Assembly (NCBI RefSeq): GCF_009649075.1
Contig: NZ_CP045737.1
Span: forward strand, 372,001-436,000
Direction of reading: 5' to 3'
Source: Aeromicrobium yanjiei
GTDB taxonomy: Bacteria > Actinomycetota > Actinomycetes > Propionibacteriales > Nocardioidaceae
Length of the DNA stretch: 64,000 bases
The translations under genes and the position numbers were made by a program. The notes beneath the pieces were generated by a model. That model searched no databases, was not told where the DNA came from, and was given only the letters and a program-made list of their open reading frames with translations. This document shows positions 15,404 to 38,257 of the stretch, piece after piece (within the stretch, counting starts at the first letter, position 1; every line of letters starts with the position of its first letter).

Positions 15404-15429
15404 GCATGATCCACCGCACCGGGGGGTAC
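15404..15429 (+). promoter_or_regulatory. Possible stress-sigma promoter (weak -35)
   Basis: GGGTAC at 15424-15429 matches the sigma-B/sigma-F -10 element; the -35 place 16 bp upstream holds only GCAT. It lies 30 bp before an acidic mini-protein, as seen for related genes further on. Confidence 0.4.
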
Positions 15430-15459
15430 GTCATGGTCCTGACCACCAGGAGGATCGCC

Positions 15460-15609
15460 ATGACCGTGCTTCCCGACGAACCCTTCGAGCCTGACGACGT
15501 GGACCCCGAGGACCCCTTCGCGGTCGAGCCGGACGCGGAGCCGGAGCTCCCACCGGACCCGGACCGGATCGTCCCGATCCCGGGAGAGGACCCGGCCGAC
15601 CTCACCTAG
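15460..15609 (+). CDS. Acidic Asp/Glu/Pro-rich mini-protein A
   Basis: 49 residues from ATG 15460, chosen for the AGGAGG 7 nt upstream; an upstream in-frame ATG at 15406 lies before the GGGTAC box and is rejected. Almost half the residues are Asp, Glu or Pro (for example PFEPDDVDPEDPF), with no Cys and no hydrophobic segment, so it should be disordered and very soluble. Three similar mini-proteins lie at 21.2, 26.5 and 34.3 kb. No known family recognised. Confidence 0.65.
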   Translation: MTVLPDEPFEPDDVDPEDPFAVEPDAEPELPPDPDRIVPIPGEDPADLT

Positions 15610-15745
15610 ATCCGTCACGGGCCGCGACCCCGCAGCCTGCGCCGAGACACCGAATTGGGCATAATTGAGCCTGCGAGCGTGTACGAGCGGCGCGGGCCGG
15701 GTGGCTGCGCACGATGAGGCGGACCCCGAGGGGAGCAGGCGGCGG

Positions 15746-18700
15746 ATGCAACACACGTTCACGACGACCGAGGTCGGTCGCGACCTGGCCGAGGTCGACT
15801 GGAACGCCACCCCGCTGGGACCGCCCGACGACTGGCCGCAGAGCCTCAAGACGACCGCCCGCATGCTGCTCACCACCAAGTTCTCGATGTGGATGGCGTG
15901 GGGACCCGATCTCACCTTCCTGTGCAACGACTCCTACCGGCGGCAGACGCTCGGCACCAAGTACCCCTGGGCGCTGGGCCGCCCCGCGTCCGAGGTGTGG
16001 TCGGAGATCTGGGACGACATCGGTCCGCGGATCGAGGCGGTGATGAGCACCGGCGTCGCGAGCTGGGACGAGTCGCTGCTCCTGCTGCTCGAGCGCAGCG
16101 GATTCGTCGAGGAGACCTACCACACGTTCTCGTACAGCCCGCTCGCCGCGGACGACGGCCACATCGAGGGCATGCTGTGCGTGGTCAGCGAGGTCACCGA
16201 GCAGACCATCTCCTCGCGCCGGATGACCACGCTGCGCAATCTCGCGGCACGCACGGCCGGACAGCTCACCGAGAGCGAGGCGATCGCCGCGGCCGGCGAG
16301 CAGGTTCTCGCCGATCCGCTCTCGCTGCCCTTCGGCCTGGTGTACGTCCGCGACCCCGAGCTGGGCCGGTTCGTCCGTGCCGAGGTCGCCGGGGCCGATG
16401 ACGACCACCCGCTGGCCCCGCGGGTGATCGATGTCGACGATCCCGCGCCGCTGTGGCCCGTCGAGGACGTCCTGGCGGGCCGACAGGTCCTGGTGGACCT
16501 CACGTCGCTGCCGCACGCCGCCCCCCGTGGCCCGTGGGACGATCCTCCGACGCGGGCGCTCGTGGTCCCTCTTGCGGGTGCCGCGTCGTCCCAGCCGTAC
16601 GGCTTCTTCGTCGCGGGCCTGAGCCCCTACCGCCCGGTGGACGCCGCGTACACCGGGTTCGTCGAGCTGTTCGCCGGACAGCTCGCTGCCTCGATCACGG
16701 CGGCGCGGACCTTCGCGGGCGAGAAGCGCCGGGCGGAGGCGCTGGCCCGTCTCGACGAGGCCAAGACCGACTTCTTCACCAATGTCAGCCATGAGTTCCG
16801 CACCCCGTTGACCCTGCTCCTGGGGCCCGCGGCGGACGCCTTGGCCGATCCGGCGCTGCCGCCTGACGATCCGCAGCGCGTCCGCTTCGACATCGTCCAC
16901 CGCAACGGCCAGCGCCTGCTGCAGCTGGTCAACAACCTGCTCGACTTCGCGCGGCTCGAGGCGGACGGGATCGCCTCGCACTTCGAGCCGGTCGACCTCA
17001 CGCGCCTGACCGAGCCGCTCGTGACGATGTTCGAGTCGGCGGCGGCGCAGGCCGGCCTGACGTTGACGTACCGGGGCGCCGAGCTCTCGACCCAGAGCTA
17101 CGTCGACATCGAGCACTGGTCCAAGATCGTGCTCAACCTGATGTCGAACGCCTTCAAGTTCACCTTCCACGGCGGCATCACGGTCACGCTCGTCGAGCAG
17201 GACGGTGACGCGGTGCTGACCGTCGCCGACACCGGGGGCGGCATCCCGGCAGCCGAGCTGCCGCACCTGTTCGACAGGTTCCACCGTGTGCGTGGGGCTG
17301 AGTCGAGGACGCACGAGGGTTCAGGCGTCGGGCTCGCCCTGGTGTCCGAGCTCGTGCAGCTGCACGGCGGCGAGGTCGACGTCGCCAGCACCGAGGGCGT
17401 CGGCACCACGATGACCGTGCGGATCCCGCTCGGCCGCGCCCACTTGCCGCAGGACGAGGTGGTCGAGTCGGCGGGCACCCGCGAGCCGGTGCCGGGGGCC
17501 GGGGCGGACCTGCTGTCCGATGCGTGGCGTTGGCTCGAGTCCGCCCGGAACGAGACGAGCGAGCCCACGGCGCCTCCGCAGGACGGTCTCGCCCGCGTCC
17601 TCGTGGTGGACGACAACATCGACATGCGGCGATACGTCGCGGGCCTGCTCGCCCGCGAGTACGACGTCATGACCGCGGCAGACGGGGTCGAGGCGCTGGA
17701 GCGCATCGCGGACACGGTCCCCGACCTGATCATCACCGACGTGATGATGCCGCGCCTCGACGGCTTCGGGCTGCTGGCCCGGCTCCAGGCCGATCCGAGG
17801 ACCACCGGCGTCCCCGTCATCATGCTCAGCGCGCGTGCCGGCGAGGAGGGGACGGTCGAGGGCCTCGAGGCAGGAGCGGCGGACTATCTCGTCAAGCCGT
17901 TCGCGGCCCGCGAGCTGCTCGCGCGGGTGCGGGTCAACCTCGAGCTCGACCGGGTCCGGCGCGTGCGGGCCACGCTGGAGCGGAGCGAGGCGCTGCTCGA
18001 CCAGGCGCAACGGCTCGCGAAGGTGGGCAGCTGGGAGGCCGACCTCTCGACGAGGACCGTGACCGCGTCCGACGAGCTCCTGCGGCTGACCGGCCTGACC
18101 CGTCAGGAGTTCGAGGAGATGGGCTGGCCCGGAGTGGTCTCCGGCGTCGTGCACCCTGACGACGCCGAACGGGTCATCGGGACGCTCGGCGATCTCGAGA
18201 TCGGCGACGTCATGACGTACGACATGCGCATCCTGACTCCCCAGGGCGTCGAGCGTCTCGTCACCGTCCGGGCGGCTCTCCTCGGGGACGAGGACGGGCA
18301 GCCGCGGACGCTGCAAGGATCGATGCAGGACGTCACCGAGCAGCGCGCGGCCGAGCAGGCGATGTCGGCGGCCCGTGCGCGCGAGGAGGCCGGCCGCCGC
18401 GAGCACGCGATCGCGGAGGAGCTGCAGCGCAGCCTGCTGCCGGCCGAGTCGTTCGACCTGGAGCACCTCGACGTCGCGACGTACTACCGGGCCGGCATCG
18501 AGGGCACGTACGTCGGCGGTGACTGGTACGACATCATCGAGCTCGGCAGCGGCCGCACGGCGTTCGTCATGGGCGACGTCATGGGACGGGGCGTGCGTGC
18601 CGCGTCGGTGATGGGTCAGCTGCGCTCCGCGGTCCGCGCGTTCGCGACGCTGGACCTGGCCCCCGACGAGGTGATGCGTCACCTGGACGTGCTGGTGCAG

Positions 18701-19510
18701 GATCTGCCGGGCGATCAGATCGTGACGTGCGTCTACGGCGTCTTCGACCCCCGGGACGAGACGCTTCGCTACGCGAACGCCGGTCACCTCCCCCCGCTGG
18801 TGTCGAGCCGGGACGGTGAGCTGCGGCGCCTGACGGCAGGCGGCCCCCCGCTGGGCGCGGGGTACGGCGACGAGGCGACCGACGAGATCCCCCTCGCGGC
18901 GGGCGCGACGATCGTCTTCTACACCGACGGCCTGGTCGAGCACCGCGGCCGCGACATCGACGACGGGATCTGGGCGCTCGAGCGCCAGGTCGTCTGGCGT
19001 GCGGGCACCCCCCTCCCGGGGATGCCCGAGGCCATCGTCGGTGCGCTGCTCCCGGACGGTCCCGACGACGACGTCGCGATCCTGGTCGCACGCGTCACCT
19101 CGGTAGCCGAGACCGCGGGCCTGTCCATGCACCGCGACACGGGACGTGCGACGGTCGCCGAGGCGCGGCAGTTCGTCGTCGAGCGGCTCAACCGGTGGCA
19201 CGTCCCCGAGCCGGTGACCCGGGACATGGCCCTCATCACGAGTGAGCTGGTGACCAACGCGATGGTGCACGGGGGCGCGCCGGTCGAGCTGCGGCTGCGC
19301 TGCGCGGGCACGCAGGTGCTCGTCGAGGTGCAGGACGATGCGGCCGGTGAGATGCCGCGGCCGCGCGATCCCGCGCAGACCGACGAGCACGGCCGGGGCC
19401 TGCACATCGTGGACGCGCTGTCCGACGAGTGGGGAACCCGCGGCACCGAACGCGGCAAGACCGTGTGGAGCGTCCGGGCCTGGCGGCCCGGCAACCGAGG
19501 AGGATCATGA
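15746..19510 (+). CDS. Multidomain stress controller: PAS-GAF-histidine kinase-REC-PAS-PP2C (SpoIIE)-HATPase
   Basis: 1254 residues from ATG 15746; the start fits homologous N-termini (VGRDLAEVDWNATPLGPP). In order: PAS-like fold (about 1-150), GAF (about 175-330), HisKA with H349 in SHEFRTPL, HATPase_c (GGGIPAAEL, GSGVGLALV), receiver domain (about 615-735, phospho-Asp in IITDVMMPRLDG), second PAS (about 750-865), SpoIIE/RsbU PP2C phosphatase (VGGDWYD, MGDVMGRG, NAGHLPPL, YTDGLVE), and a C-terminal RsbW-like HATPase (ELVTNAMVHGG, GRGLHIVDAL). It joins phosphatase and anti-sigma kinase activities in one chain and is coupled to a STAS protein by a 4-bp overlap. It should sense stress and switch a sigma-B/F-type factor. 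Confidence 0.93.
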   Translation: MQHTFTTTEVGRDLAEVDWNATPLGPPDDWPQSLKTTARMLLTTKFSMWMAWGPDLTFLCNDSYRRQTLGTKYPWALGRPASEVWSEIWDDIGPRIEAVMSTGVASWDESLLLLLERSGFVEETYHTFSYSPLAADDGHIEGMLCVVSEVTEQTISSRRMTTLRNLAARTAGQLTESEAIAAAGEQVLADPLSLPFGLVYVRDPELGRFVRAEVAGADDDHPLAPRVIDVDDPAPLWPVEDVLAGRQVLVDLTSLPHAAPRGPWDDPPTRALVVPLAGAASSQPYGFFVAGLSPYRPVDAAYTGFVELFAGQLAASITAARTFAGEKRRAEALARLDEAKTDFFTNVSHEFRTPLTLLLGPAADALADPALPPDDPQRVRFDIVHRNGQRLLQLVNNLLDFARLEADGIASHFEPVDLTRLTEPLVTMFESAAAQAGLTLTYRGAELSTQSYVDIEHWSKIVLNLMSNAFKFTFHGGITVTLVEQDGDAVLTVADTGGGIPAAELPHLFDRFHRVRGAESRTHEGSGVGLALVSELVQLHGGEVDVASTEGVGTTMTVRIPLGRAHLPQDEVVESAGTREPVPGAGADLLSDAWRWLESARNETSEPTAPPQDGLARVLVVDDNIDMRRYVAGLLAREYDVMTAADGVEALERIADTVPDLIITDVMMPRLDGFGLLARLQADPRTTGVPVIMLSARAGEEGTVEGLEAGAADYLVKPFAARELLARVRVNLELDRVRRVRATLERSEALLDQAQRLAKVGSWEADLSTRTVTASDELLRLTGLTRQEFEEMGWPGVVSGVVHPDDAERVIGTLGDLEIGDVMTYDMRILTPQGVERLVTVRAALLGDEDGQPRTLQGSMQDVTEQRAAEQAMSAARAREEAGRREHAIAEELQRSLLPAESFDLEHLDVATYYRAGIEGTYVGGDWYDIIELGSGRTAFVMGDVMGRGVRAASVMGQLRSAVRAFATLDLAPDEVMRHLDVLVQDLPGDQIVTCVYGVFDPRDETLRYANAGHLPPLVSSRDGELRRLTAGGPPLGAGYGDEATDEIPLAAGATIVFYTDGLVEHRGRDIDDGIWALERQVVWRAGTPLPGMPEAIVGALLPDGPDDDVAILVARVTSVAETAGLSMHRDTGRATVAEARQFVVERLNRWHVPEPVTRDMALITSELVTNAMVHGGAPVELRLRCAGTQVLVEVQDDAAGEMPRPRDPAQTDEHGRGLHIVDALSDEWGTRGTERGKTVWSVRAWRPGNRGGS

Positions 19511-19821
19511 CCGAGCTGACGTTCACGACCGAGGACCGGCAGGACGGGGCCGTGCTGTCGGTCGCGGGGGACATCGACATGCAGACGTCGGCGGACCTGC
19601 GCGCCCAGGTCGACACCATGGACGTCGCGCACCGCACGCTGGTGCTGGACCTGGGCGGGGTGACGTTCGTGGACTCCAGCGGACTCGGCTCGCTGCTCGG
19701 GGTCAAGAAGCAGCAGGAGCGGGCCGGCGGTCGGCTGCTGCTGTCGAACGTGTCGCCACCGGTCGCCCGCATCATCGAGATCACCAGGATGGACCGGGTG
19801 TTCGAGAACGCCGAGGACTGA
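19507..19821 (+). CDS. STAS-domain anti-anti-sigma factor (RsbV/SpoIIAA type)
   Basis: 104 residues from ATG 19507, with GAGGA upstream and a 4-bp overlap with the preceding controller gene. The whole protein is a STAS domain: AVLSVAGDIDMQTSADL, VLDLGGVTFVDSSGLGSLLG, where the Ser of DSSGLG is the regulatory phosphorylation site, and a conserved C-terminal helix. Dephosphorylated by the PP2C domain, it should bind the RsbW-like kinase and free the sigma factor. Longer upstream frames are artefacts of overlap. Confidence 0.94.
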   Translation: MTELTFTTEDRQDGAVLSVAGDIDMQTSADLRAQVDTMDVAHRTLVLDLGGVTFVDSSGLGSLLGVKKQQERAGGRLLLSNVSPPVARIIEITRMDRVFENAED

Positions 19822-21124: not shown

Positions 21125-21150
21125 GCTTGAGCCCGACCGGTGGCGGGTAC
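21125..21150 (+). promoter_or_regulatory. Stress-sigma-type promoter for mini-protein B
   Basis: GCTT (21125-21128), a 16-bp spacer, then GGGTAC (21145-21150), one mismatch from the GTTT-N15/17-GGGTAT/C consensus of actinobacterial sigma-F/sigma-B. It is 50 bp before an ATG. Confidence 0.6.
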
Positions 21151-21363: not shown

Positions 21364-21388
21364 GATTGATCCCCTCGCAGGGGGGTAC
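21364..21388 (+). promoter_or_regulatory. Stress-sigma-type promoter for the glycosyltransferase operon
   Basis: GATT (21364-21367), 15-bp spacer, GGGTAC (21383-21388), 55 bp before the first glycosyltransferase start. Confidence 0.55.
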
Positions 21389-21442
21389 ACCGTCCGCCGA
21401 GTGCAGAAGGTCGCTCCGCCCCTTGTCATGGGAAAGGACACC

Positions 21443-22552
21443 ATGCTGCACTCGGCCACCCGAGCCCCACGACCCGCCGAGCTGCGGCCCGTCCGCGTCG
21501 CCTCGATCCCCGCCTCCCACGTCTATGTGCGGCACCTGGCGCCCGCGCAGCCCGAGGATGCGGCGGTCGAGCGGCTGCCCGACCCGCGGCCCCCGGGGAG
21601 CAGCCCTGAGGCGTCCCAGTGGTGGCCCCCGGTGATGCTCGACGCCGACTGGATCGCGGCGCACGGCGACGACTTCGACCTGATGCACCTGCACTTCGGA
21701 TTCGACGCGTTCTCGGTCGACGACCTGCGTGCCGTCGTCGCCGCTCTCCGGACGGCCGGCAAGCCGTTGGTGTTCACGGTCCACGACCTGCGCAACCCCC
21801 ACCACACGGACAGGCGCGCCCACGACGAGCAGCTCGACGTCCTGGTGCCCGCGGCCGACGAGCTCATCACCCTCACCCCTGGTGCGGCGGCCGAGATCGC
21901 TCGTCGCTGGGGACGCACGGCCACCGTCATCGGTCATCCGCACGTCGTCGAGCTCGACGTCGCCGCCCGGCTCCGGGATCGTCGCGCGCGGCGCACCGAC
22001 CCCTTCCGGATCGGTGTGCACCTCAAGAGCCTCCGGGCGTGCATGGACGCCGAGGCAGTCGTCCCCGTGCTCGTCCGGGCCGCGCGCGAGCTCCCGGGCG
22101 CGGTGCTGCAGGTCAACGGCCATCGCGACGTGCTGGAGCCGGGCGGCGCCCAGTTCGATGCGCGGCTCGCGGCGATGCTCGGCGACCTGGGCGACGAGAT
22201 CGACCTGCGGGTGCACGACTTCTTCTCGGACGCCGAGCTGTGGGACTACCTCGGCAGCCTCGACGTCTCGGTGCTGCCCTACCGCCACGGGACGCACTCG
22301 GGCTGGCTCGAGGCCTGCCGCGACCTCGGCACGGACGTGGTCGCGCCCAGCTGCGGCTACTACGCCGACCAGGCGCCCGTGCACACGTACCGCCTGGACG
22401 AGACGACGTTCGACGAGGAGAGTCTCGTGCGCGCGATCCACCGCGCCCACGACGCACCCACCCCGCTCCTGGACCTCGATGACCGCGCCCGCCAGCGCGA
22501 TGCGGTCTCCGAGGCCCACCGGGCCGTCTTCACCCGGCTCGTCCGGTCATGA
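21443..22552 (+). CDS. Glycosyltransferase (GT-B, GT4-like), operon gene 1
   Basis: 369 residues from ATG 21443, with AAAGGA upstream. GT-B fold signs: an N-terminal half with DLMHLHFGFDAFS and LVFTVHDLRNPHH, a linker, then a C-terminal half with FRIGVHLKSLRA, AVLQVNGHRD and the nucleotide-sugar region DVSVLPYRHGTHSGWLEACRDLG, where the usual Glu-rich motif is GWLEAC. No membrane segment. First of four overlapping glycosyltransferase genes; the sugar and acceptor are unknown. Likely under the GGGTAC promoter 55 bp upstream, so stress-induced. Confidence 0.85.
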   Translation: MLHSATRAPRPAELRPVRVASIPASHVYVRHLAPAQPEDAAVERLPDPRPPGSSPEASQWWPPVMLDADWIAAHGDDFDLMHLHFGFDAFSVDDLRAVVAALRTAGKPLVFTVHDLRNPHHTDRRAHDEQLDVLVPAADELITLTPGAAAEIARRWGRTATVIGHPHVVELDVAARLRDRRARRTDPFRIGVHLKSLRACMDAEAVVPVLVRAARELPGAVLQVNGHRDVLEPGGAQFDARLAAMLGDLGDEIDLRVHDFFSDAELWDYLGSLDVSVLPYRHGTHSGWLEACRDLGTDVVAPSCGYYADQAPVHTYRLDETTFDEESLVRAIHRAHDAPTPLLDLDDRARQRDAVSEAHRAVFTRLVRS

Positions 22553-23613
22553 GGATCTGCCTGATCGCGTCCAGCCGATTCCCGGTGGGTGAGCCGTTCC
22601 ATGGCGGCATGGAGGCGCACACCGCGCTGCTGGCCGAGCACCTCATGGCTCGCGGCCACAGGGTCAGCGTCTTCGCCGCGCCCGGCTCCGACCCTCGCCT
22701 GCACGTCGAGGAGCTGGCGACCGTGCCGTTCGAGCCGAGCCCCGCGGCCCGCCGCGACGTGGGCGCGATGCCCGAGGTGTGGATGGCCGAGCACCACGCG
22801 TACCTGGGCCTCATGATGGAGCTCGCGCGGACGGGCAAGGACCGCTTCGACGTGATCCACAACAACTCGCTGCACCACCTCCCGATCGCGATGGCCGAGC
22901 TGGTCGACCTGCCGATGGTCTCGACCCTGCACACACCGCCCGTCCCGTGGCTGGAGTCGGCCCTCATGGTCGCGCGGGTCCCCACGACGTTCGTCGCGGT
23001 GAGTCGCCACACCGCAACCGCGTGGGAGCACGCAGTCGCGGCCGAGGTCGTGCTCAACGGGATCGACACGACGCGCTGGAGCGCGGGACCCGGGGGCGCC
23101 CGCGCGGTCTGGACCGGCCGGATCGTCCCGGAGAAGGCGCCCCACCTCGCGGTGCTGGCCGCGCTCGAGGCCGGGATGGAGATCGACCTCGCGGGTCCTC
23201 GCCAGGACGAGGACTACTTCGTGCGTGAGATCCAGCCGCTCCTCGGCGATCGGGTCCACTACGCGGGCCACCTCGACACGGCCGCGCTGGTCGACCTGGT
23301 CGGCGCAGCGGCCGTCGCGGTCGTCTCGCCCGTCTGGGACGAGCCCTACGGCCTGGTGGCCGCGGAGGCGATGGCCTGCGGCACCCCGGTGGCCGCCTTC
23401 CGCCGTGGCGCGCTCCCCGAGATCGTCACGGCGCGCACGGGCGCCCTGGCAGCGCCCGGCGACGTGAGCGCCCTGGCGGTGGCGATCGAGGAGGCCAGCA
23501 GGCTGGACCGCTCGCACGTGCGCGAGCACGCGACGAGGCACCTGGGGGTCGCGCGCATGGTGTCGGCCTACGAGGACGTGTACCGGCGAGCGGCTGCCGG
23601 ACGAGCCGCATGA
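22549..23613 (+). CDS. Glycosyltransferase family 4, operon gene 2
   Basis: 354 residues, overlapping gene 1 by ATGA. A typical GT4: MRICLIASSRFPVGEPFHGGMEAHT with the GG donor loop, VSTLHTPPVPWL, FVAVSRHTA, VVLNGIDTTRW, AVWTGRIVPEKAP, and the retaining E-x7-E motif in SPVWDEPYGLVAAEAMACGTPV. Cytosolic or peripheral. Transfers a sugar from an activated donor with retention. Coupled translation with neighbours suggests a single glycan or glycolipid product. Confidence 0.92.
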   Translation: MRICLIASSRFPVGEPFHGGMEAHTALLAEHLMARGHRVSVFAAPGSDPRLHVEELATVPFEPSPAARRDVGAMPEVWMAEHHAYLGLMMELARTGKDRFDVIHNNSLHHLPIAMAELVDLPMVSTLHTPPVPWLESALMVARVPTTFVAVSRHTATAWEHAVAAEVVLNGIDTTRWSAGPGGARAVWTGRIVPEKAPHLAVLAALEAGMEIDLAGPRQDEDYFVREIQPLLGDRVHYAGHLDTAALVDLVGAAAVAVVSPVWDEPYGLVAAEAMACGTPVAAFRRGALPEIVTARTGALAAPGDVSALAVAIEEASRLDRSHVREHATRHLGVARMVSAYEDVYRRAAAGRAA

Positions 23614-24623
23614 TCGGCTACTACGTGCACCACCACGGTCGCGGTCACCTGCACCGCGCCATCGCCGTCGCGGCAGCGACCGGCACGGTCGTGGTCGGCA
23701 TGAGCTCTTTGCCGCGCCCTGCTGAGTGGATCGGCCCCTGGCTCGAGCTCCCTCGCGACGACGAGGGCGCGGAGCCCGTCGACGCCAGCGCGCGCGGCCG
23801 TCTGCACTGGGTGCCGGAGATGGACCGCGGTCTCACCGCCCGCATGTCCGAGATCTCGTCGTGGATCGCTAACGTCGAGCCGACGCTCATGGTGGTGGAC
23901 ATCTCGGTCGAGGTGTCGCTGCTGGCCCGCCTGCACGGCACGCCGGTCATCACCCTGGTCCTGCCGGGGGAGCGCCTCGACTCCGCGCACGACCTCGTCC
24001 ACTCGGTCGCACGGCGCATCGTGGGCGCATGGCCACCCGAGGCGACGGGCATGGTCACCGGACTCGACCCGCACCTGGACCGGCTGACCTGCGTGGGAGG
24101 TCTGTCCCGGTTCGACGGACGTGAGATCGTCGCGCCCGCCAGGGATGACGGGGAGCGACGGGTGCTCGTGCTCGCCGGCGCCGGCGACCAGGGGGCGGAG
24201 GAGTGGGACCTCCTCGCGGCGCAGGCCGGGACGCCGGGCTGGACGTGGGACGTCATGGGTCCCGGCGCGGCCTGGGTCGAGGACCCGTGGGAGCGGCTGT
24301 GCGCGGCCGACGTCGTGGTCACCCACGCGGGCCAGAACGCGATCGCGGAGGTGGCAGCGGCGAGGCGGCCCGCGGTCGTCGTGCCGCGCCCGCGCCCGTT
24401 CGGCGAGCAGGACGCGATGGCGGCGGTCCTCGGTGCCGACGGACGCCTCCCGGTCACGGTGTGCCCCGAGGGCCTGCCGACCTCCGGATGGTCGCAGCTG
24501 CTCGACCGGACCGCGGCCCTCGACGGCACGGGCTGGACGTGCTGGAACGACGGTGGCGGCGCGCAGCGACTCGCCGCCGTGATCGCCGAGGAGATCGCTC
24601 GTACGCCGGCGGGGCCGTCCTGA
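23610..24623 (+). CDS. Glycosyltransferase, MurG/GT28-like, operon gene 3
   Basis: 337 residues, ATGA overlap with gene 2. The start MIGYYVHHHGRGHLHRA has the GxGH-like loop of GT28 enzymes. The C-terminal half has RRVLVLAGAGDQG, AADVVVTHAGQNAIAEVAAARRP (the UDP-binding HAG motif) and PRPRPFGEQDAMA. Resembles MurG and UDP-glucuronosyltransferase-like enzymes. Works with the other three glycosyltransferases. Confidence 0.87.
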   Translation: MIGYYVHHHGRGHLHRAIAVAAATGTVVVGMSSLPRPAEWIGPWLELPRDDEGAEPVDASARGRLHWVPEMDRGLTARMSEISSWIANVEPTLMVVDISVEVSLLARLHGTPVITLVLPGERLDSAHDLVHSVARRIVGAWPPEATGMVTGLDPHLDRLTCVGGLSRFDGREIVAPARDDGERRVLVLAGAGDQGAEEWDLLAAQAGTPGWTWDVMGPGAAWVEDPWERLCAADVVVTHAGQNAIAEVAAARRPAVVVPRPRPFGEQDAMAAVLGADGRLPVTVCPEGLPTSGWSQLLDRTAALDGTGWTCWNDGGGAQRLAAVIAEEIARTPAGPS

Positions 24624-25450
24624 TGCTCGCCGTCGTCACGATCGCGCACGGCCGCCACGACCACCTCGCGCTGCAGCAGGCGGGTCTTCGCCGCTCACAC
24701 CGCCCACCCGATCTCCACGTCGTGGTCGCGATGGACGACGGAGGGCTCGAGCAGGCGCTCGAGCCCGTCCCCTGGCGTCGCCGGGTCGTCCACCTCGCGC
24801 GCTCCGGTCCGCACCTGCCGCTCGCCCGTGCCCGCAACGTCGGCGCCCGCACCGCGATCACCGCGGGAGCCGGGACGCTCGTGTTCCTCGACGTCGACTG
24901 TGTCCCGTCCCCGACCCTGCTGGGTGCGTACGACGAGGCGGCGACGGATCCGGTGACGTCCCGTGACCTGCTCTGCGGCCCGGTCAGCTATCTCCCACCC
25001 CCGCCCCCGGACGGCTACGACCTCGCGACCCTCGACTCGCTCGCGGAGCCGCATGCCGCTCGGCCGGCGCCGCCCGCCGGGACGGTCGATCGGACCCGCC
25101 GCGGCTACGAGCTGTTCTGGTCGCTGTCCTTTGCACTGGGTCGCGGGACCTGGTCCGAGATCGGCGGCTTCCACGAGGGCTACCTCGGCTACGGCGGGGA
25201 GGACACCGACTTCGCCAAGAGTGCCGAGAGCCTCGACCTGGCCCTGACGTGGGTCGGCGCCGCCACCGCGTTCCACCAGCACCACCCGGTCAGCTCGCCT
25301 CCCGTCGAGCACGTGGAGGACGTGGTCCGCAACGCGACCCTCTTCCACGCGCGCTGGGGGCAGTGGCCGATGACGGGCTGGCTGAGCGCGTTCGAGGAGC
25401 GCGGCCTCGTGGAGCGACGGGGTGACGGGACGTACCGGGTCGTGCGGTGA
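24623..25450 (+). CDS. Glycosyltransferase GT2/GT-A with galactosyltransferase-type C-terminal domain, operon gene 4
   Basis: 275 residues; ATG 24623 overlaps the previous TGA by one base. GT-A fold: an N-terminal MLAVVTIAHGRHDHL, ARARNVGARTAI, the metal-binding FLDVDCVP (D-x-D), then the C-terminal domain SLSFALGRGTWSEIGGFHEGYLGYGGEDTDF, quoted here in parts (GFHEGYLGYGGEDTDF carries the catalytic ED), and FHQHHPVS. Similar to the galactosyltransferase-associated domain found beside mycobacterial mycofactocin and arabinogalactan enzymes. Last of the operon; ligase gene follows after 49 bp. Confidence 0.88.
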   Translation: MLAVVTIAHGRHDHLALQQAGLRRSHRPPDLHVVVAMDDGGLEQALEPVPWRRRVVHLARSGPHLPLARARNVGARTAITAGAGTLVFLDVDCVPSPTLLGAYDEAATDPVTSRDLLCGPVSYLPPPPPDGYDLATLDSLAEPHAARPAPPAGTVDRTRRGYELFWSLSFALGRGTWSEIGGFHEGYLGYGGEDTDFAKSAESLDLALTWVGAATAFHQHHPVSSPPVEHVEDVVRNATLFHARWGQWPMTGWLSAFEERGLVERRGDGTYRVVR

Positions 25451-25499
25451 CGCCGCGATCGGTAGGCTCGGGGCGCTCATCGACGGAGGGCTGGAGTCC

Positions 25500-26471
25500 A
25501 TGCTCGCGTTCCCGCAGGACCCCATGCTGGCGCGCCACGTCACGGCGCTGCCGGAGCCGGGCGCGCTGGCCGGCGGCTGCGCGTACGAGCCCAAGTTCGA
25601 CGGCTACCGGGCGCTGCTGTTCGTCGACGAGGACGGCTGTCGGGTCCAGTCGCGGCGAGGTCACGACATCACCGATGCGTTCGACGACGTGGCCGCGGCG
25701 GCCGCCGAGCAGCTTCCGGCCGGTCTGGTCGTCGACGGTGAGCTCGTCGTGTGGGCCGACGGCTCGCTCGACTTCGCCGAGCTGCAGCGGCGTCTGGGCA
25801 GGGGGAGCAATCACGGCTTCCGGCGGCGCCCGGCCTCGTTCATCGCATTCGACGTGCTCGCAGTCGCCGGCATCGACATCCGGTCGCGCCCGCTCGAGGT
25901 GCGCCGAGAGCTCCTGGAGACCGTGATCGACGAGCCGGAGGGAGCGATCCAGCTCTCGCCCCAGACCACCGACGTGGCCGAGGCCCGCGAGTGGCTGGAC
26001 GACTACAGCGCCGCGGACGTCGGCATCGAGGGCCTGGTGGTCAAGGGGCTCGGCACGGCCTACCGCAACGGGGCGCGGGACTGGTTGAAGTACCGCGTGC
26101 GTGACACCGCCGAGGCGATCGTGGGTGCAGTCGCCGGGGATCCCGAGGCGCCCGAGCACCTGGTGCTCGGACGCCTGGACGGCTCCGGGGACCTGCAGAT
26201 GGTCGGGACGACGACCCAGCTCGCACCGCAGCTGCGCAAGGGCCTCTCCGGGCTGCTGGTGCCCGCGGACGAGGAGCACCCGTGGCAGGACGGCGGGGCG
26301 ACGGGAACGCGCTGGGGAAGGCGGGACCAGCGGCCCGTGACCCTGGTCGAGCCGACGCTCGTGGTGGAAGTCTCGGTCGACAGCTCGACCGATCGGGGCA
26401 GGTGGCGCCACCCGGCGCGGCTGGTGCGGGCGCGGCCCGACCTGAGCGTCGCCGAGGTGCCGTCCGTCTGA
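25500..26471 (+). CDS. ATP-dependent DNA ligase, LigC-like
   Basis: 323 residues from ATG 25500. Nucleotidyltransferase motif I EPKFDGYRA with adenylated K32, motif III-like ASFIAFDVLA, motif IV EGLVVKG, motif V WLKYR, and an OB-fold C-terminal domain. There is no polymerase or nuclease module of LigD and no N-terminal DNA-binding domain of LigB, so it matches the small LigC type that seals nicks in alternative end-joining or excision repair. GGAG sits close before the ATG; a TAGGCT hexamer at 25463-25468 could be its own -10. Located in the stress region. Confidence 0.92.
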   Translation: MLAFPQDPMLARHVTALPEPGALAGGCAYEPKFDGYRALLFVDEDGCRVQSRRGHDITDAFDDVAAAAAEQLPAGLVVDGELVVWADGSLDFAELQRRLGRGSNHGFRRRPASFIAFDVLAVAGIDIRSRPLEVRRELLETVIDEPEGAIQLSPQTTDVAEAREWLDDYSAADVGIEGLVVKGLGTAYRNGARDWLKYRVRDTAEAIVGAVAGDPEAPEHLVLGRLDGSGDLQMVGTTTQLAPQLRKGLSGLLVPADEEHPWQDGGATGTRWGRRDQRPVTLVEPTLVVEVSVDSSTDRGRWRHPARLVRARPDLSVAEVPSV

Positions 26472-26479: not shown

Positions 26480-26504
26480 CGGGTTACACGGAGCCGCGGC
26501 GGGG
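26480..26504 (+). promoter_or_regulatory. Stress-sigma-type promoter for mini-protein C
   Basis: GTTA (26480-26483), 15-bp spacer, GGGTAC (26499-26504), 31 bp before ATG 26536. Confidence 0.65.
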
Positions 26505-26535
26505 TACGTGGAGGGCCCCGACGAGAGGAATCACC

Positions 26536-28068: not shown

Positions 28069-28113
28069 CACAGCTGCCTCTCGTCGCGTCAGTCGCGGTG
28101 GGAGGCAGCTGTG
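28069..28113. terminator. Hairpin between convergent dehydrogenase and YbdK-like genes
   Basis: CACAGCTGCCTC (28069-28080) pairs with GAGGCAGCTGTG (28102-28113). The right arm lies inside the last codons of the reverse-strand ligase gene, so it probably serves the plus-strand gene. Confidence 0.7.
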
Positions 28114-29183
28114 CTTTCGAGCACGTCGTCGACGACCGCCCGGAGGTCCAGGTCCGGTCCGGCCGCTGCGCGTTGGCGGTCCGCGCCGGTGCCCTCGGCC
28201 AGGACGCGGGCAATGCCGTCCTCGACCAGCTCGCGGTCGCCCGCCCGCTCCAGGGCCGGACCGATCGCGTCGACCAGCGCGCCGAGGGCGTCGGCGGCGG
28301 GCACGAGGGCTCCGTCCAGCGGGTGGAGCAGCGACGCCGATACGCCGTGGCGTCGCGCCTGCCATCGAGCAGCACGCAGCAGGTCGACCCGCCACGGTGT
28401 CAGGGGGGTGCGGGCGTGCCAGGCCTCGGCGCACGTCTCGACGAGCCCGCGGGAGAGGGCTGCGACCAAGGCCGTGTCCGCGAGGTCGGTGCAGATGTCG
28501 GCGACCCTGATCTCGACCGTGGGGTAGTCCCGTGCGAGCCGGGCGTCGAAGTAGAGCATGCCGTGGTCGAGCGCAGCCCCGCTCGCGACGATCGCCTCGA
28601 CGGCCTTCTCGTAGCCCGCCGCGTCGCCGAACGGCTCGACGGGCCCCGCGGACGGCCACGAGTCCCAGATCTCCGCGCGCCAGCTCGCATACGACGTGTC
28701 GATGCCGAGGTCGAACGGTGAGCCCGTCGAGACGGCCTGGACGAGCGGGAGCCACGGCCGGATCCGGTCCAGGACGGCGACGCCCTCCTCGTCGTCCGCG
28801 ATGTCGACATGCACGTGCATGCCGCACGCGAGCGCCTCGCGCCCGACGCGGCCGAACCGCGCCATCATCTGCTCGTACCGTCTCTTGGGGGTGAGCCGGC
28901 CCTCGTCGTCGGGCATGACCGGCGTCGGCATCGCGGCCAGCCGCGCGCCGGCGCCGTCGGCGGCCTTGGCCGCGCCGCGGCGCGCCTCCTTCAGGTCGGC
29001 GATGACGTCGCCCAGCGCGTGGTGAGGATCGGACTGGGTCTCGACCTGCTGCAGGAACAGCTCCTGCTCGACCTCGTCCCCAGGAGCCTGCTCCACGGCG
29101 CGGTGCGACGAGGCGACCAGCTGTCGGGTCCCCGGGTCGACCAGGAACATCTCTTCCTCGACCGCCACCTTGCGCACTGTCAC
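28089..29183 (-). CDS. Carboxylate-amine ligase, YbdK/GCS2 family (glutamate-cysteine ligase-like)
   Basis: 364 residues; GTG 29183 chosen, with GTG 29177 as an alternative. Glutamine-synthetase-fold GCS2 family: KVAVEEEMFLVDPGTRQLV with the metal-binding Glu cluster, ACGMHVHVDI, and the C-terminal TVEIRVADICTD. Members form a gamma-glutamyl or other carboxylate-amine bond with ATP; the true substrate of YbdK proteins is usually unproven. Divergent from the DUF72 gene. No mycothiol or ergothioneine gene lies beside it. Confidence 0.88.
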   Translation of the reverse strand: MTVRKVAVEEEMFLVDPGTRQLVASSHRAVEQAPGDEVEQELFLQQVETQSDPHHALGDVIADLKEARRGAAKAADGAGARLAAMPTPVMPDDEGRLTPKRRYEQMMARFGRVGREALACGMHVHVDIADDEEGVAVLDRIRPWLPLVQAVSTGSPFDLGIDTSYASWRAEIWDSWPSAGPVEPFGDAAGYEKAVEAIVASGAALDHGMLYFDARLARDYPTVEIRVADICTDLADTALVAALSRGLVETCAEAWHARTPLTPWRVDLLRAARWQARRHGVSASLLHPLDGALVPAADALGALVDAIGPALERAGDRELVEDGIARVLAEGTGADRQRAAAGPDLDLRAVVDDVLESTAASHRD

Positions 29184-29325
29184 GGCACCATCGTGGCGGT
29201 GCTGTGCCGGGACGGCAAACCGGCCGGGTCGGCTGCAGCAGCCCTGAGGCCGATCCCGATTCAGCCGCGCCGATAGGGGCACCTGGACGATGGCGTCGAG
29301 AGAGAGTCGAGAGAAAGGACCCCGC

Positions 29326-31005: not shown

Positions 31006-31031
31006 ATACCCGTGCCCGGTGCGGGTGATAC
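31006..31031 (-). promoter_or_regulatory. Stress-sigma-type promoter for the SDR gene
   Basis: On the reverse strand GTAT (31031-31028), 16-bp spacer, GGGTAT (31011-31006). A second GGGTAT overlaps the -35 (31033-31028). Confidence 0.55.
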
Positions 31032-31336: not shown

Positions 31337-31493
31337 TCTTCGCGGTGCGTCGTCCGATCCCGTCGCCTGGGCTGTGTGCCCCGGTTCGGGTCTCTCGGAC
31401 ACCATGTCTGTACCCCCGCCCGAGCCGTCTCAAACCACGTGGCGCCCGCGGGGGGCGTGACCGTGGTCACCCACGAGTTGCCGAGGGCTGGAT

Positions 31494-31519
31494 GTTTCCG
31501 GGACGTCGTGCCGGGGTAT
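31494..31519 (+). promoter_or_regulatory. Consensus stress-sigma promoter (GTTT-N16-GGGTAT)
   Basis: GTTT (31494-31497), 16-bp spacer, GGGTAT (31514-31519): an exact match to the mycobacterial sigma-F consensus. The start of the BrkB-like gene is 72 bp downstream. Confidence 0.8.
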
Positions 31520-32653: not shown

Positions 32654-32679
32654 GCCCGACGAGAAGGTGGCGATCGGCG

Positions 32680-32704
32680 GTTGCCGCGCGTCCGACCGGG
32701 GTAC
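32680..32704 (+). promoter_or_regulatory. Stress-sigma-type promoter for the FAD/Rieske gene
   Basis: GTTG (32680-32683), 15-bp spacer, GGGTAC (32699-32704), 89 bp before GTG 32794. Confidence 0.65.
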
Positions 32705-34505: not shown

Positions 34506-34513
34506 GTCGGCGA

Positions 34514-34942
34514 CTAGGCCGAGATCGACGCCTGGTCCTCGCTGGAACCGATCTGGATCTTGCGCGGCTTGGCCCGTTCCACGAGCGGGATGACCAGCGA
34601 GAGCACGCCGTTGTCGTAGGCCGCCGAGATCCGCTCGGTGTCGACGCCCTCGCCCAGCGTGAACTGGCGGACGTAGCTGCCCGGTCGACGCTCACGGGTC
34701 AGCCACTGGGCGCCCTCGTGGATCGCGGCCGTGCGCTCGGCGCGAATCGTCAGCAGGTGGCCGTCGAGGTCGATGTCGATCGAGCCGGGATCGACACCGG
34801 GCAGATCTGCACTGAGGACGTAGCGGTCGCCCTCCTTGAACAGGTCGACGGGCACGGTCCTGGGGCCCGTGCGCAGCTGTGTCGTCAGGTCCTGAGCCAG
34901 ACGGTCCAGGCCACTGAAAGGATCGAAGGTCATCGAGTTCAT
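34514..34942 (-). CDS. hsp20: Hsp20/alpha-crystallin small heat shock protein
   Basis: 142 residues from ATG 34942, with AAAGGAG 9 nt upstream; an ATG 9 nt further in (34933) is less well placed. Alpha-crystallin domain about residues 35-125: VDLFKEGDRYVLSADLPGVDPGSIDIDLD, cited as DLFKEGDRYVLSADLPGVDP, then LTIRAER, RRPGSYVRQFTLGEGVD and the A-x-x-x-NGVLSLVIP signature. ATP-independent holdase chaperone, usually oligomeric. Its promoter and an HspR-type operator are visible upstream, so heat induction is expected. Confidence 0.95.
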   Translation of the reverse strand: MNSMTFDPFSGLDRLAQDLTTQLRTGPRTVPVDLFKEGDRYVLSADLPGVDPGSIDIDLDGHLLTIRAERTAAIHEGAQWLTRERRPGSYVRQFTLGEGVDTERISAAYDNGVLSLVIPLVERAKPRKIQIGSSEDQASISA

Positions 34943-35152: not shown

Positions 35153-35989
35153 ATGACCGACTCACCCGCCCAGGACCTGCCCGGCCACGAGAGCGACCTG
35201 CAGCCGGCCGCCGACCACGGCGAGCACTCCTACCGGGGCACCGGCCGCCTGCTCGGCAAGGTCGCGATCATCACCGGTGCGGACAGCGGCATCGGCAAGG
35301 CCGTCGCGATCGCGTACGCCCGTGAGGGCGCGGACGTCGTGATCGGCTACCTCAGCGAGGACGACGACGCCGCCGACACCCAGCAGTGGGTCGAGCGGGC
35401 CGGACGCACCGCGCTGCTGGTCAAGGGCGACCTGGCCGATCCGGCGCACTGCCGCGCGATGGTGAGCCAGACCGTCGAGCACTTCGGCCGGGTCGACGTG
35501 CTGGTCAACAATGCCGCGGTCCAGATGTACCGCAAGACGTTCGAGGAGATCCCGGACGAGGAGTGGGACCGCATCATCGCGACGAACCTGAGCGCGATGT
35601 TCCACCTCGTGAAGGCGTCGTTGCCGCACATGCCGCACGGCTCGTCCATCATCGGGACCTCGTCCATCAACTCCGACATGCCGATGCCCGAGCTGATCCC
35701 GTACGACGTCACGAAGGCCGGCATCGCCAACATGACGGCCGGCCTGGCGCAGCTGCTCGCGGACCGGGGGATCCGCGCCAACAGCGTCGCGCCGGGCCCC
35801 ATCTGGACGCCGCTGATCCCCACCACGATGCCGCCGGACGTCGTGGACGAGTTCGGCGACATGTCCCCGATCGGCCGGGCGGGTCAGCCCGCCGAGCTCG
35901 CCCCGGTCTACGTGATGCTGGCCTCCGACGAGGCGTCGTACGTCTCGGGTGCCCGCGTCGCCGTGACGGGAGGCATGCCTATCCTGTGA
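35153..35989 (+). CDS. SDR oxidoreductase, general stress protein 39/YghA-like
   Basis: 278 residues from ATG 35153 with GGAGG upstream. The 40-residue N-terminal extension (AQDLPGHESDLQPAADHG) is typical of the GSP39/YhdF/YghA group. SDR core with ITGADSGIGKAVAIAYAREG, VKGDLAD, NNAAVQ, SSINSD and catalytic YDVTK. Homologues reduce small aldehydes or glyoxals and are stress-induced, which agrees with the GGGTAG promoter just upstream. Confidence 0.92.
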   Translation: MTDSPAQDLPGHESDLQPAADHGEHSYRGTGRLLGKVAIITGADSGIGKAVAIAYAREGADVVIGYLSEDDDAADTQQWVERAGRTALLVKGDLADPAHCRAMVSQTVEHFGRVDVLVNNAAVQMYRKTFEEIPDEEWDRIIATNLSAMFHLVKASLPHMPHGSSIIGTSSINSDMPMPELIPYDVTKAGIANMTAGLAQLLADRGIRANSVAPGPIWTPLIPTTMPPDVVDEFGDMSPIGRAGQPAELAPVYVMLASDEASYVSGARVAVTGGMPIL

Positions 35990-36020: not shown

Positions 36021-36046
36021 GTTTGCCAGATCCACCCGCCGGGTAG
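36021..36046 (+). promoter_or_regulatory. Stress-sigma promoter for methyltransferase (GTTT-N16-GGGTAG)
   Basis: GTTT (36021-36024), 16-bp spacer, GGGTAG (36041-36046), 49 bp before ATG 36095. Confidence 0.75.
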
Positions 36047-36094
36047 AACCCGGGGGTGACAGCGCCGCGCGTCACAGCAGGAGGAGCCCACCAC

Positions 36095-36754: not shown

Positions 36755-36772
36755 CCCCGGCCGGGCGGCCGG

Positions 36773-36967
36773 TCAGCGCTTCGGGATCACCTTGTGGGTG
36801 CCGTCGCACCACGGCTGGGAGGCCGACTTGCCGCACCGGCACACCGCGCTGATGGGTCGGGTCGTGCGGTGGTTCACGCCGTCGGCGTCCTGGATCACGT
36901 GGTCGCCCCGCACGAGCATCGGCCCGTCCGGGCAGAGGATCACGTCGGGGTGCTCGGGCTCTGTCAT
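36773..36967 (-). CDS. CDGSH iron-sulfur domain protein
   Basis: 64 residues from ATG 36967. Single CDGSH motif: CRCGKSASQPWCDGTH provides the 3-Cys, 1-His ligands of a [2Fe-2S] cluster. Start overlaps the stop of the heme-oxygenase-like gene by 4 bp (ATGA), a pairing that recurs in actinobacteria. Probably an electron carrier or cluster donor for that protein. Confidence 0.92.
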   Translation of the reverse strand: MTEPEHPDVILCPDGPMLVRGDHVIQDADGVNHRTTRPISAVCRCGKSASQPWCDGTHKVIPKR

Positions 36968-37908
36968 GCGGCCCACTCCTGGAGCATGCGGTGGGCGAAC
37001 CGGTCCTCGAGGTCCAGGCACGTGAAGGCGCCGAAGAAGACGTCGTCGCGCAGGGCCGGCTCGTCCTGCAGCAAGGCGCCGCAGATCGTCCGCACGGCCA
37101 GCTGCTCGTGGACCGCGTCCGCCTCGACGTGCTCGGTGTAGTAGCCGATCATCGACTCCGGCAGCCCGAGCCGGTCGAAGCCCTGGGCGATCCGTCGCGA
37201 CGGGATGCTGCTGGTGACCTCGAAGGCCGCGAGGTGTCCGAGCGAGGCGCCGCGGAGGCGACGGTTGAGGCCGAACAGCGACATCGCGTTGTTCTCCTCG
37301 AGCACCTCCAGCGGGACGTCGTCGATGTACGCGCCGTACTCGTTGCGCAGGCCGCAGTCGTCCATGCCGCGGGCGAACAGTGCAGCGTGCAGCTTGGTGG
37401 GGTCGCCGCAGCCGTACTCGTCGAACTGCAGCTCCATCAGTGCTGCCTTGGCGGTGTAACCGAGGCGGGGCACGAGCCACGCGCTCGGATCGGACTCCTT
37501 GAGGTGGTAGATCGACCGGAGGCGCAGGAGCTCGAGTGCCTGGTCGTAGGTCGCATCCTTGTGGACGAACTTGGCGAGCGACGGACCGTCGTGCTCGGCC
37601 ACGAACGAGAAGAAGGTCTCGGCGAACTCCCCGTCCGGTGACGTGTCGGGCGCGCGGTCGCGAAGCTCCTGCTCGAACGACGACTCGAGCGAGCGTCGCA
37701 GCTCGACCAGCTCGGGCTGCCACTCGCGGGCGTCGTCGACGTCCTCGAAGCCGCGGTAGTGCAGCTCGTACAGAGCCCAGAGCGTGATCTGGAGGTCCTC
37801 GTCGTCGTCGGGGAGCGTGCGCAACGCCGCATCCCATGAGGGCGAAGGGGCTCGCATGGACTCGAACACGATCTCGCTGAGGGATCCGCGCCCCTTGGGC
37901 GTCAGCAC
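36964..37908 (-). CDS. Iron-containing redox enzyme family protein (heme-oxygenase-like diiron fold)
   Basis: 314 residues from GTG 37908 (GGAG 7 nt upstream). All-helical; resembles the heme-oxygenase-like diiron oxidase (HDO) group: LWALYELHYRGFEDVDD, LRSIYHLKESDPSAW, LQFDEYGCGD, GYYTEHVEADAVHE and a C-terminal D/E-rich helix supply candidate iron ligands (Glu, His, Asp). Known members oxidise amino-acid-derived or fatty acid substrates; this one has no assigned substrate. It is coupled to a CDGSH protein and preceded on its strand by a stress-type promoter. Confidence 0.85.
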   Translation of the reverse strand: MLTPKGRGSLSEIVFESMRAPSPSWDAALRTLPDDDEDLQITLWALYELHYRGFEDVDDAREWQPELVELRRSLESSFEQELRDRAPDTSPDGEFAETFFSFVAEHDGPSLAKFVHKDATYDQALELLRLRSIYHLKESDPSAWLVPRLGYTAKAALMELQFDEYGCGDPTKLHAALFARGMDDCGLRNEYGAYIDDVPLEVLEENNAMSLFGLNRRLRGASLGHLAAFEVTSSIPSRRIAQGFDRLGLPESMIGYYTEHVEADAVHEQLAVRTICGALLQDEPALRDDVFFGAFTCLDLEDRFAHRMLQEWAA

Positions 37909-38257
37909 GTGGGCTCCGAGGCGGAGTCGGGTGTGGGTGTCAGTTCTGGCGGCATGTTCTTCCTCGCGATGTGCACAGCTCCCGCCGGTTGCTCGACAGG
38001 CGCGTCAGGAGTACCCCGCGGGCCATGTCCCAAGCGCTCCGGGACGGTCGCCCCGGGGTGGGCAGGATCACCTCGCGGCCGTGATGTGGCTGTTGCTGTC
38101 GGCCCCTAGGAGGAGCCCGGGTCGCTACCTTACCCGCGCACGGGCAGGGGTCGAAGGACCCTGCTCTCCCGGGGCGATCCGGGCACATGGTGGAGCATCG
38201 TGCCTCGTCCGGTCAGTGGATGCGGAGACAGAGGCACTGGTTCCTGAGGAGGACGCC
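37909..38257. other. 349-bp divergent intergenic region
   Basis: It separates the divergent heme-oxygenase-like and sortase-fusion genes. It contains the reverse-strand stress-type promoter at 38011-38035, an AGGAGG at 38109 with no convincing gene after it, and the leader of the sortase fusion gene. I see no further gene or RNA. Confidence 0.5.
38011..38035 (-). promoter_or_regulatory. Stress-sigma-type promoter for the heme-oxygenase-like gene
   Basis: Reverse strand: GCTT (38035-38032), 15-bp spacer, GGGTAC (38016-38011), about 100 bp before GTG 37908. Confidence 0.55.

Follow-up and report, generated by a model that had tools for sequence, protein, structure and literature searches.

Does a 17-kb block of the Aeromicrobium yanjiei genome hold a co-located general stress regulon, and does that regulon carry its own controller? 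The question is raised by a 64-kb window (C2:372001-436000, the whole stretch of DNA analysed) of this 3.68-Mb, two-contig genome, in which promoter-like motifs crowd between 21 and 38 kb, close to the genes for a large signalling fusion protein and a STAS anti-sigma-factor antagonist. The block is best read as a general stress island of the SigB/SigF type, with the fusion as a sensory input that would act through a partner switch, a reading to which we assign a probability of about 0.75. Gene models come from a simple in-house caller and their start positions may be off. The nearest named relative of an island protein comes from an Aeromicrobium metagenome-assembled genome, at 74% identity. 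Related genomes and loci are labelled G and L, respectively; L142 and G072 are probably one genome, and other named loci may likewise coincide with G genomes. The genus sample comprises 49 genomes, A. yanjiei included.

The promoter motif is the firmest part of this reading. The pattern GTTT-N14-17-GGGTA occurs three times in the window against 0.08 expected, a count that none of 100 shuffles reached. Two of these sites, at 31494 and 36021, are the exact GTTT-N16-GGGTA pairs singled out by the sequence-only reading of this DNA, and the third lies on the minus strand at 31435-31411. Relaxing the first box to GNTT yields eight distinct sites, referred to here as strict sites (Table 1), all of them intergenic, all confined to 21.1-38.0 kb and all with spacers of 15 or 16 bp. 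The remaining 47 kb of the window contain zero, in agreement with the earlier remark that no such pair was seen in intergenic DNA outside the block. The eight strict sites occupy seven intergenic regions, and weaker matrix sites at 26784, 29258 and 31031 (minus strand) raise the number to ten, close to the nine motif-bearing regions first counted between 21 and 38 kb. A further, weak site proposed at 15.4 kb was not confirmed: the -10-like stretch there, GGGGGGTACG in the window and GGGTACGTC in the closest relative, is accompanied in neither by GNTT at the right spacing. The motif resembles the mycobacterial SigF consensus, given as GGWWT-N16-17-GGGTAY in the excerpted text of PMC7693655, and Streptomyces SigB homologues have similar promoters, with GNNT or GTTT and GGGTA boxes (PMC8346170, in excerpt).

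A GC-rich genome rich in GGGTA boxes might offer a dense patch by chance, and the genome-wide count appears at first to allow it. The strict pattern returns 42 rows (41 places once two overlapping readings at 2894616 are merged) and a reversed-pattern control returns 55, so that the genome-wide number alone is uninformative. The arrangement of the sites is what argues against chance. Eight of the 41 places fall within 17 kb, a concentration that none of 200,000 uniform simulations reached at this width, itself set by the observed block. The other two clusters lie at 156.5-160.7 kb, with four sites, and at 3108-3128 kb, with five. Thirty-four of the 41 places are intergenic and no more than 300 bp from a same-strand start; 16 of these belong to the three clusters and 18 are scattered, so the block and its counterparts are not the whole regulon. 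A weight matrix, trained only on 41 sites from other Aeromicrobium loci that had themselves been picked by the strict pattern, was scanned over the 250 bp upstream of each called gene, with 14 hand-placed, roughly even 20-kb stretches (253 genes) as background. At a score of at least 11, a site precedes 8 of the 19 island genes but none of the 36 genes in the rest of the window and none of the 253 background genes (Fisher p 4e-11); at a score of at least 9, the numbers are 10 of 19, 0 of 36 and 2 of 253. When sites at any position are counted, overlapping readings included, score 11 gives 11 sites in the island versus 10 in 280 kb of background (0.6 per island length). The motif is thus not equally dense elsewhere, as judged on these 14 stretches. 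Clustering, promoter position compared with other genes, recurrence amid diverged spacers and the reversed-control footprints described below together reject chance density, which we consider a negligible prospect.

The sites recur across relatives. The closest of them, G069, whose fusion is 85% identical, shares the gene order and has all eight sites in matching orientation, with no extra site and no loss. Aligned without gaps from the -10 box, the spacers of the two genomes agree at 55 of 123 bases and the boxes at 71 of 72. Box agreement is mostly built in, eight of nine box positions being fixed by the search pattern, and the weight is therefore placed on the recurrence of all eight sites while their spacers drifted. 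Among 80 named loci related to the flavin adenine dinucleotide (FAD) oxidoreductase-Rieske gene of the island, 59 have the motif between -350 and +10 around the match start, as against 1 of 80 for the reversed control; these comprise 55 of 60 mycobacterial or Nocardia loci and 4 of 6 Aeromicrobium loci. Upstream of the iron-containing redox enzyme, which serves here as the island marker gene, the motif is found in 18 of 30 genus genomes (own included, the 30 taken from 40 with a match; reversed control 0 of 30), among them all 15 most similar of the 30. A per-gene table, which leaves out L142 (Aeromicrobium endophyticum, part of the matrix training), records the motif before catalase homologues in 7 of 7 cases, before YihY genes in 3 of 3 and before FAD-Rieske genes in 6 of 10; it records none before CDGSH (0 of 13), Hsp20 (0 of 3) or STAS genes (0 of 6). 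All of these fractions ignore kinship between the genomes and are descriptive. At the level of sequence, the predicted SigB/SigF-type promoter family, its clustering and its conservation are well established.

Which sigma factor would read these sites? A search of the genome for the SigB/F/G family places its two clear members outside the window, and a sigma gene inside the window is accordingly rejected. SIG1 (C2:159,160-159,957; 189.9 bits) lies 0.25 Mb from the island marker gene, and SIG2 (C2:3,127,154-3,127,933; 165.1 bits) lies 2.7 Mb away, or 0.9 Mb if the contig is circular. Each sits within one of the other motif clusters, SIG1 at 156.5-160.7 kb and SIG2 at 3108-3128 kb, and a strict site stands 77 bp before the SIG2 start. 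The SIG1 cluster also holds Ku, LigD-polymerase and ligase genes (Pfam) and a phytochrome-PP2C gene; the SIG2 cluster includes a manganese catalase, with a KatE-type catalase about 15 kb away. A different sigma factor, of the extracytoplasmic function (ECF) or a primary-like type, might read the motif instead, the likeness to SigB/F promoters being coincidental. Four further sigma genes do match the SigB/F/G family more weakly, and the pairing of sigma factor and motif is here a prediction; nevertheless, the position of SIG1 and SIG2 amid the motif, the likeness to the published SigF consensus, and the presence of family sigma genes among the island genes in eight relatives' loci make this alternative improbable.

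An initial sigma-factor phylogeny, in which SIG2 sat on a long branch, was replaced by one covering more genomes. In this tree of 35 proteins, SIG1 belongs to a genus-wide clade (100/99), SIG2 groups with the in-island sigma factors of G072 and G081 (96/88), and members of another clade (99/99) likewise occur among the island genes of other relatives. The islands of G072 and G081 each bring together a sigma gene, the fusion-STAS pair and motifs at 10 distinct places, so that island and sigma gene are joined in some sisters and apart here. In G067 and G101, the single match to SIG2 at E 1e-25 is of the SIG1 clade and the motif still stands before island genes, so that SIG1 alone may suffice for motif use.

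Two side observations concern the surroundings of SIG1. About 5 kb from it, a minus-strand gene (L031:3331-5927, C2:151331-153927) encodes a bacteriophytochrome-like PAS_2/GAF/PHY protein fused to PP2C; it overlaps a STAS gene and has a 73% homologue at the same place in G067. This fusion suggests a red-light input into the stress sigma network. The LigD-polymerase gene beside SIG1 (L031:9553-10999) has the motif upstream in its own genome and in the seven relatives' loci displayed (L283, L285, L287, L291, L295, L299 and L300), which points to end-joining repair under a stress sigma factor.

The putative controller itself, described by the sequence-only reading as an RsbU/RsbW-like fusion with a STAS antagonist in the block, is borne out by Pfam domains and by the STAS family match. 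The PP2C part of the fusion matches the SpoIIE family of Pfam at 4.8e-48 and its C-terminal domain matches HATPase_c_2 at 1.5e-20. All 15 orthologues keep the HisKA histidine, the receiver aspartate, the aspartate-holding motif blocks of PP2C and, in the last domain, the N and G2 boxes; the aspartates of the PP2C blocks bind metal. The STAS gene overlaps the fusion stop codon (ATGA), and its product retains DSSGLG in 9 of 9 genus genomes, scores above the TIGR00377 cut-off and finds SpoIIAA-type antagonist complexes as its best PDB matches. The top ten PDB matches of a single-sequence model of the last domain are SpoIIAB, UsfX-RsfB, RsbW and a SigF-anti-sigma complex, with the RsbW domain of Rv1364c (3ke6) at rank 21. 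A sequence profile that pools this domain with its two RsbW-like counterparts elsewhere in the genome finds SpoIIAB first; a single-sequence search of the last domain against solved structures returned nothing. The domains and key residues, like the two sigma genes, are evident at the level of sequence.

The genome offers few other parts for such a switch. Three RsbW-like domains exceed 50 bits, namely that of the fusion, a stand-alone 135-residue protein at C2:61 kb and a PP2C-RsbW fusion at 3147 kb, and five more matches lie just above the cut-off. There are five PP2C domains and four STAS matches above 60 bits. No RsbW-like match was found adjoining SIG1 or SIG2. The second PP2C-RsbW-like fusion (C2:3146678-3147799, L044), which differs from the one in the window, has a proton-antiporter/complex-I-type membrane protein as its neighbour and is some 19 kb away from SIG2; the 3.3 kb inspected around it contain no motif.

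Does the controller belong to the island? The fusion is present in 9 of the 49 genus genomes, own included, with the coupled STAS gene in all nine; the redox enzyme is present in 40 of 49, and in eight of the nine genomes with the fusion. Where fusion and redox enzyme share a contig, they are no more than 20 kb apart in 6 of 7 genomes (own included), the gap ranging from 3.5 to 20 kb and order and orientation varying, although these genomes are related and are not seven independent cases. In G063 the two genes are on separate contigs, and island genes occur around the fusion together with 3 motif rows. The fusion genes of G072 and G081 have the motif some 240 bp upstream, divergent from YihY.

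Several observations weigh against parts of the overall reading, regulon or controller. Of the 49 genus genomes, 40 lack the fusion, and the island marker is present in 32 of these. In G101, fusion and marker gene are 116 kb apart, and the 20 kb surrounding the fusion are free of the motif. Six orthologues of the fusion found elsewhere in the family lack a comparable island and show at most one motif in 36-40 kb; their regions contain only weak paralogues of a short-chain dehydrogenase and an alcohol dehydrogenase from the island set, and a profile of the window-type STAS protein finds nothing there at E 1. Within the window, no strict site stands ahead of the fusion, and the scan of island genes left the P450, GCS2, Hsp20 and one short-chain dehydrogenase gene without a recognisable site. 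The motif is missing upstream of all 14 FAD-Rieske loci from other, non-mycobacterial genera, among them Marmoricola, Nocardioides, Janibacter and Naasia. The best families of SIG1 and SIG2, TIGR02980 and PRK07122 SigF, are both matched under their curated cut-offs (234.35 for TIGR02980), and no strict site precedes SIG1 or any of the 11 sigma homologues labelled SIG1. The G1 box of the RsbW-like domain is degenerate in most genus copies, and whether this domain is an active kinase is uncertain. A nine-sequence profile of the domain, from the window and eight genus orthologues, finds the histidine kinase VraS first and SpoIIAB fourth. The model of the domain is itself of low confidence, with a mean predicted local distance difference test score (pLDDT) of 69.7 and three of five models below 40; even so, the fold comparison would seem to support RsbW likeness better than the sequence profiles do.

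Much of this list also favours a rival in which the regulon is real and the fusion and STAS protein are mere neighbours that steer something else, such as another sigma factor, cyclic di-GMP (c-di-GMP) or some other STAS-linked output: the island marker persists in 32 fusion-free genomes, the six family orthologues have neither island nor window-type STAS, and G101 is unlinked. Linkage within 20 kb in six of seven related genomes despite changed order and orientation is harder to reconcile with mere proximity, as are the STAS gene coupled to every genus copy of the fusion, the motif upstream of the fusion in two sisters and the presence of just three strong RsbW-like domains and four strong STAS matches for two SigB/F-type sigma factors. 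We therefore hold the neighbours-only explanation to be somewhat unlikely, and continue with the fusion as an input to the island. That the fusion always accompanies the island is nonetheless rejected. The marker in fusion-free genomes and the islandless family orthologues make the fusion look like an optional input that became tied to the island in some members of the genus, and not an obligatory regulator. The earlier claim of a regulon with its own controller is upheld insofar as a fusion-STAS pair stands beside a co-located SigB/SigF-type regulon, and weakened by the 32 of 40 fusion-free genus genomes that keep the marker.

One distant orthologue of the fusion has partner-switch company. 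In G046 (L084/L085, C1:4538529 to ~4548339), a stressosome-type cassette follows about 4 kb downstream, comprising RsbRD_N-STAS, STAS and two RsbW-like genes, one of them a PP2C with an RsbW-like domain. The proposition that distant orthologues lack nearby partner-switch genes is rejected by this cassette, which speaks for partner switching in general.

In the mechanism we favour, the GNTT-N15/16-GGGTA sites would be read by RNA polymerase with SIG1 (C2:159 kb), SIG2 (C2:3127 kb) or both. An RsbW-type anti-sigma factor would hold the sigma factor in resting cells. The PAS and histidine-kinase part of the fusion would phosphorylate its own receiver domain; the receiver would tune the PP2C domain, and PP2C would set the phosphorylation state of the coupled STAS protein. 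Once dephosphorylated, the STAS protein would release the sigma factor by pulling away its anti-sigma partner, either the domain of the fusion or the separate RsbW-like protein encoded at C2:61 kb. The freed sigma factor would then direct expression of the glycosyltransferases, redox and detoxification enzymes, DNA ligase-like protein, membrane protein and tiny acidic proteins of the island, and of the genes in the end-joining and catalase clusters elsewhere. The matching of sigma factor to site, the way the phosphorylation switch runs, the kind of stress sensed and the effect of the fusion on the sigma factor are inferences; the fusion may act on these promoters and this sigma factor, and either sign of its switch would fit its sequence.

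Promoter type, sigma family and partner switching are already known, and de Been et al. are said to have described hybrid histidine kinases in sigma-B modules in 2011. The Mycobacterium SigF system (UsfX/RsbW1, RsfA, RsfB, RsbW3), together with RsfSR, is alike in promoter consensus, SigF, RsbW and STAS parts (PMC7693655, in excerpt). In RsfSR, the target of a histidine kinase is a receiver-PP2C phosphatase, which in turn dephosphorylates a STAS protein; the excerpted accounts have kinase, receiver-PP2C and RsbW as individual proteins and sigF sharing a transcript with its anti-sigma gene (PMC7693655, PMC10950880). In A. yanjiei, by contrast, kinase, receiver, PP2C and RsbW-like domain form a single chain. 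The Bacillus cereus RsbK/RsbY module of SigB similarly runs from a hybrid histidine kinase to a receiver-PP2C protein acting on RsbV (PMC10950880, in excerpt). RsbK and RsbY are described there as two proteins, whereas the window fusion has within one chain the domains that an RsbKY- or RsfSR-type relay would need, with conserved HisKA histidine and receiver aspartate, and adds an RsbW-like domain. According to the same excerpts, RsfS of M. smegmatis phosphorylates the RsfR receiver and lowers RsfR PP2C activity on RsfB, and RsbK of B. cereus raises RsbY activity (PMC10950880). Rv1364c of M. tuberculosis also joins sensor, PP2C and RsbW-like domains in one chain, but its STAS domain is fused and the passages available from PMC10950880 and PMC12143880 describe it without histidine kinase or receiver; the A. 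yanjiei protein departs from this PAS-PP2C-RsbW-STAS chain in that STAS is separate, though coupled, and a histidine kinase and receiver are added. Streptomyces OsaC, which has GAF and PAS domains, is named among the phosphatases that start the general stress response (PMC12143880, PMC8346170, both in excerpt). Streptomyces coelicolor has nine SigB and 45 RsbW homologues (PMC8346170, in excerpt), far from the two clear sigma factors and three RsbW-like domains above 50 bits found here. What appears new is the joining of kinase, receiver, PP2C and RsbW in one chain with a coupled STAS protein, and the packing of the regulon into islands with or without a sigma gene. No title or abstract on either came up in a literature search that covered some result lists only in their top part and few subscription papers.

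Table 1. Genes and SigB/F-type promoter sites of the island and its flank, in window coordinates
Feature	Position	Strand	Remarks
50-residue acidic protein	15457..15609	+	GGGTACG -10-like stretch ahead, no -35 match; orthologue 83% in closest relative
1254-residue fusion	15746..19510	+	Pfam: PAS_4 / Pfam-free region / HisKA / HATPase / receiver / PAS_3 / PP2C (SpoIIE) / RsbW-like HATPase_c_2
STAS anti-sigma-factor antagonist	19507..19821	+	ATGA overlap with fusion; DSSGLG phospho-serine motif
Cytochrome P450	19835..21004	-	Pfam; no upstream site found; 77% orthologue, same place, closest relative
GCTT-N16-GGGTA	21125..21149	+	before 44-residue acidic protein
44-residue acidic protein	21201-21335	+	behind motif 21125
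GATT-N15-GGGTA	21364..21387	+	before four-glycosyltransferase run
Four consecutive glycosyltransferase-like genes	21428..25450	+	Pfam; behind motif 21364
ATP-dependent DNA ligase domain protein	25422..26471	+	Pfam
GGTT-N16-GGGTA	26482..26506	+	before 51-residue acidic protein
51-residue acidic protein	26536-26691	+	behind motif 26482
GGTT-N15-GGGCA (weak site)	26784..26807	+	before zinc alcohol/formaldehyde dehydrogenase-like gene
Zinc alcohol/formaldehyde dehydrogenase-like gene	26880-28058	+	behind weak site 26784
GCS2-family (glutamate-cysteine ligase-like) gene	28089..29177	-	Pfam; no site found
GATT-N15-GGGCA (weak site)	29258..29281	+	before DUF72 gene
DUF72 gene	29326-30219	+	behind weak site 29258
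Short-chain dehydrogenase	30179-30973	-	near-consensus site 34 bp upstream
GTAT-N16-GGGTA (near-consensus site)	31007..31031	-	before short-chain dehydrogenase 30179-30973
GTTT-N16-GGGTA	31411..31435	-	divergent from 31494; recurs in closest relative
GTTT-N16-GGGTA	31494..31518	+	before YihY/BrkB-type membrane protein
YihY/BrkB-type membrane protein	31592-32653	+	behind motif 31494
GGTT-N16-GGGTA	32679..32703	+	before FAD-Rieske fusion
FAD oxidoreductase-Rieske fusion	32794-34320	+	behind motif 32679
Hsp20 small heat-shock protein	34514..34942	-	no site found
Short-chain dehydrogenase	35153..35989	+	no strong site
GTTT-N16-GGGTA	36021..36045	+	before methyltransferase-like gene
Methyltransferase-like gene	36095-36754	+	behind motif 36021
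Overlapping genes for iron-containing redox enzyme (Haem_oxygenas_2; island marker) and CDGSH iron-sulfur protein	36773..37908	-	Pfam; behind motif 38035
GCTT-N15-GGGTA	38012..38035	-	before iron-containing redox enzyme

Tiny acidic proteins recur behind the sites. Strongly acidic first frames of at most 80 residues follow strict sites in 5 of 26 cases in A. yanjiei (a subset of its sites) and 7 of 59 in relatives, versus 1 of 143 background gene starts; the enrichment of the own genome over background (p 3e-4) was obtained with cut-offs for small and acidic that were set after examples had been seen, and one of the five, of 28 residues, is doubtful. Pfam assigns no family to the acidic, proline-rich proteins at 21201-21335, 26536-26691 and 15457-15609, the last of which has no confirmed site. 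These proteins are concrete candidates for stress effectors.

A few features of the window stand apart. The minus-strand site at 31411-31435 has its next same-strand gene 438 bp off and is faced by a 59-residue gene; its equivalent in G072 and G081 faces the fusion gene. Just outside the island, the 960-residue product of a gene at 38336-41218 combines DUF7507/DUF11 repeats with a sortase domain at the C-terminus and shows a weak lectin-like match. GAF-ANTAR proteins, possibly RNA-binding antiterminators, occur beside stress clusters in the own genome and in relatives (window 41418-42065, L031:12819-13532 and L033:9528-10211); the L031 and L033 copies are named by likeness, and one copy has the motif 29 bp upstream.

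To our knowledge, most accounts of SigB/SigF-family stress regulons have their genes dispersed around the chromosome. A bolder and still tentative picture is that of a portable general stress island, in which a one-chain phosphorelay-to-partner-switch protein and its STAS partner would travel with dense SigF-type promoters and sometimes with a sigma gene, a bacteriophytochrome-PP2C/STAS pair near the other sigma factor would feed red light into the same network, and the tiny acidic proteins would form an undescribed class of general stress effectors. With promoters, targets, controller and, in some sisters, the sigma gene all together, much of the regulon may be readable from sequence. The two clear sigma factors, three strong RsbW-like domains and four strong STAS matches of A. 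yanjiei would make it a small natural system in which to ask how a two-component phosphorelay is wired into a single-protein partner switch.

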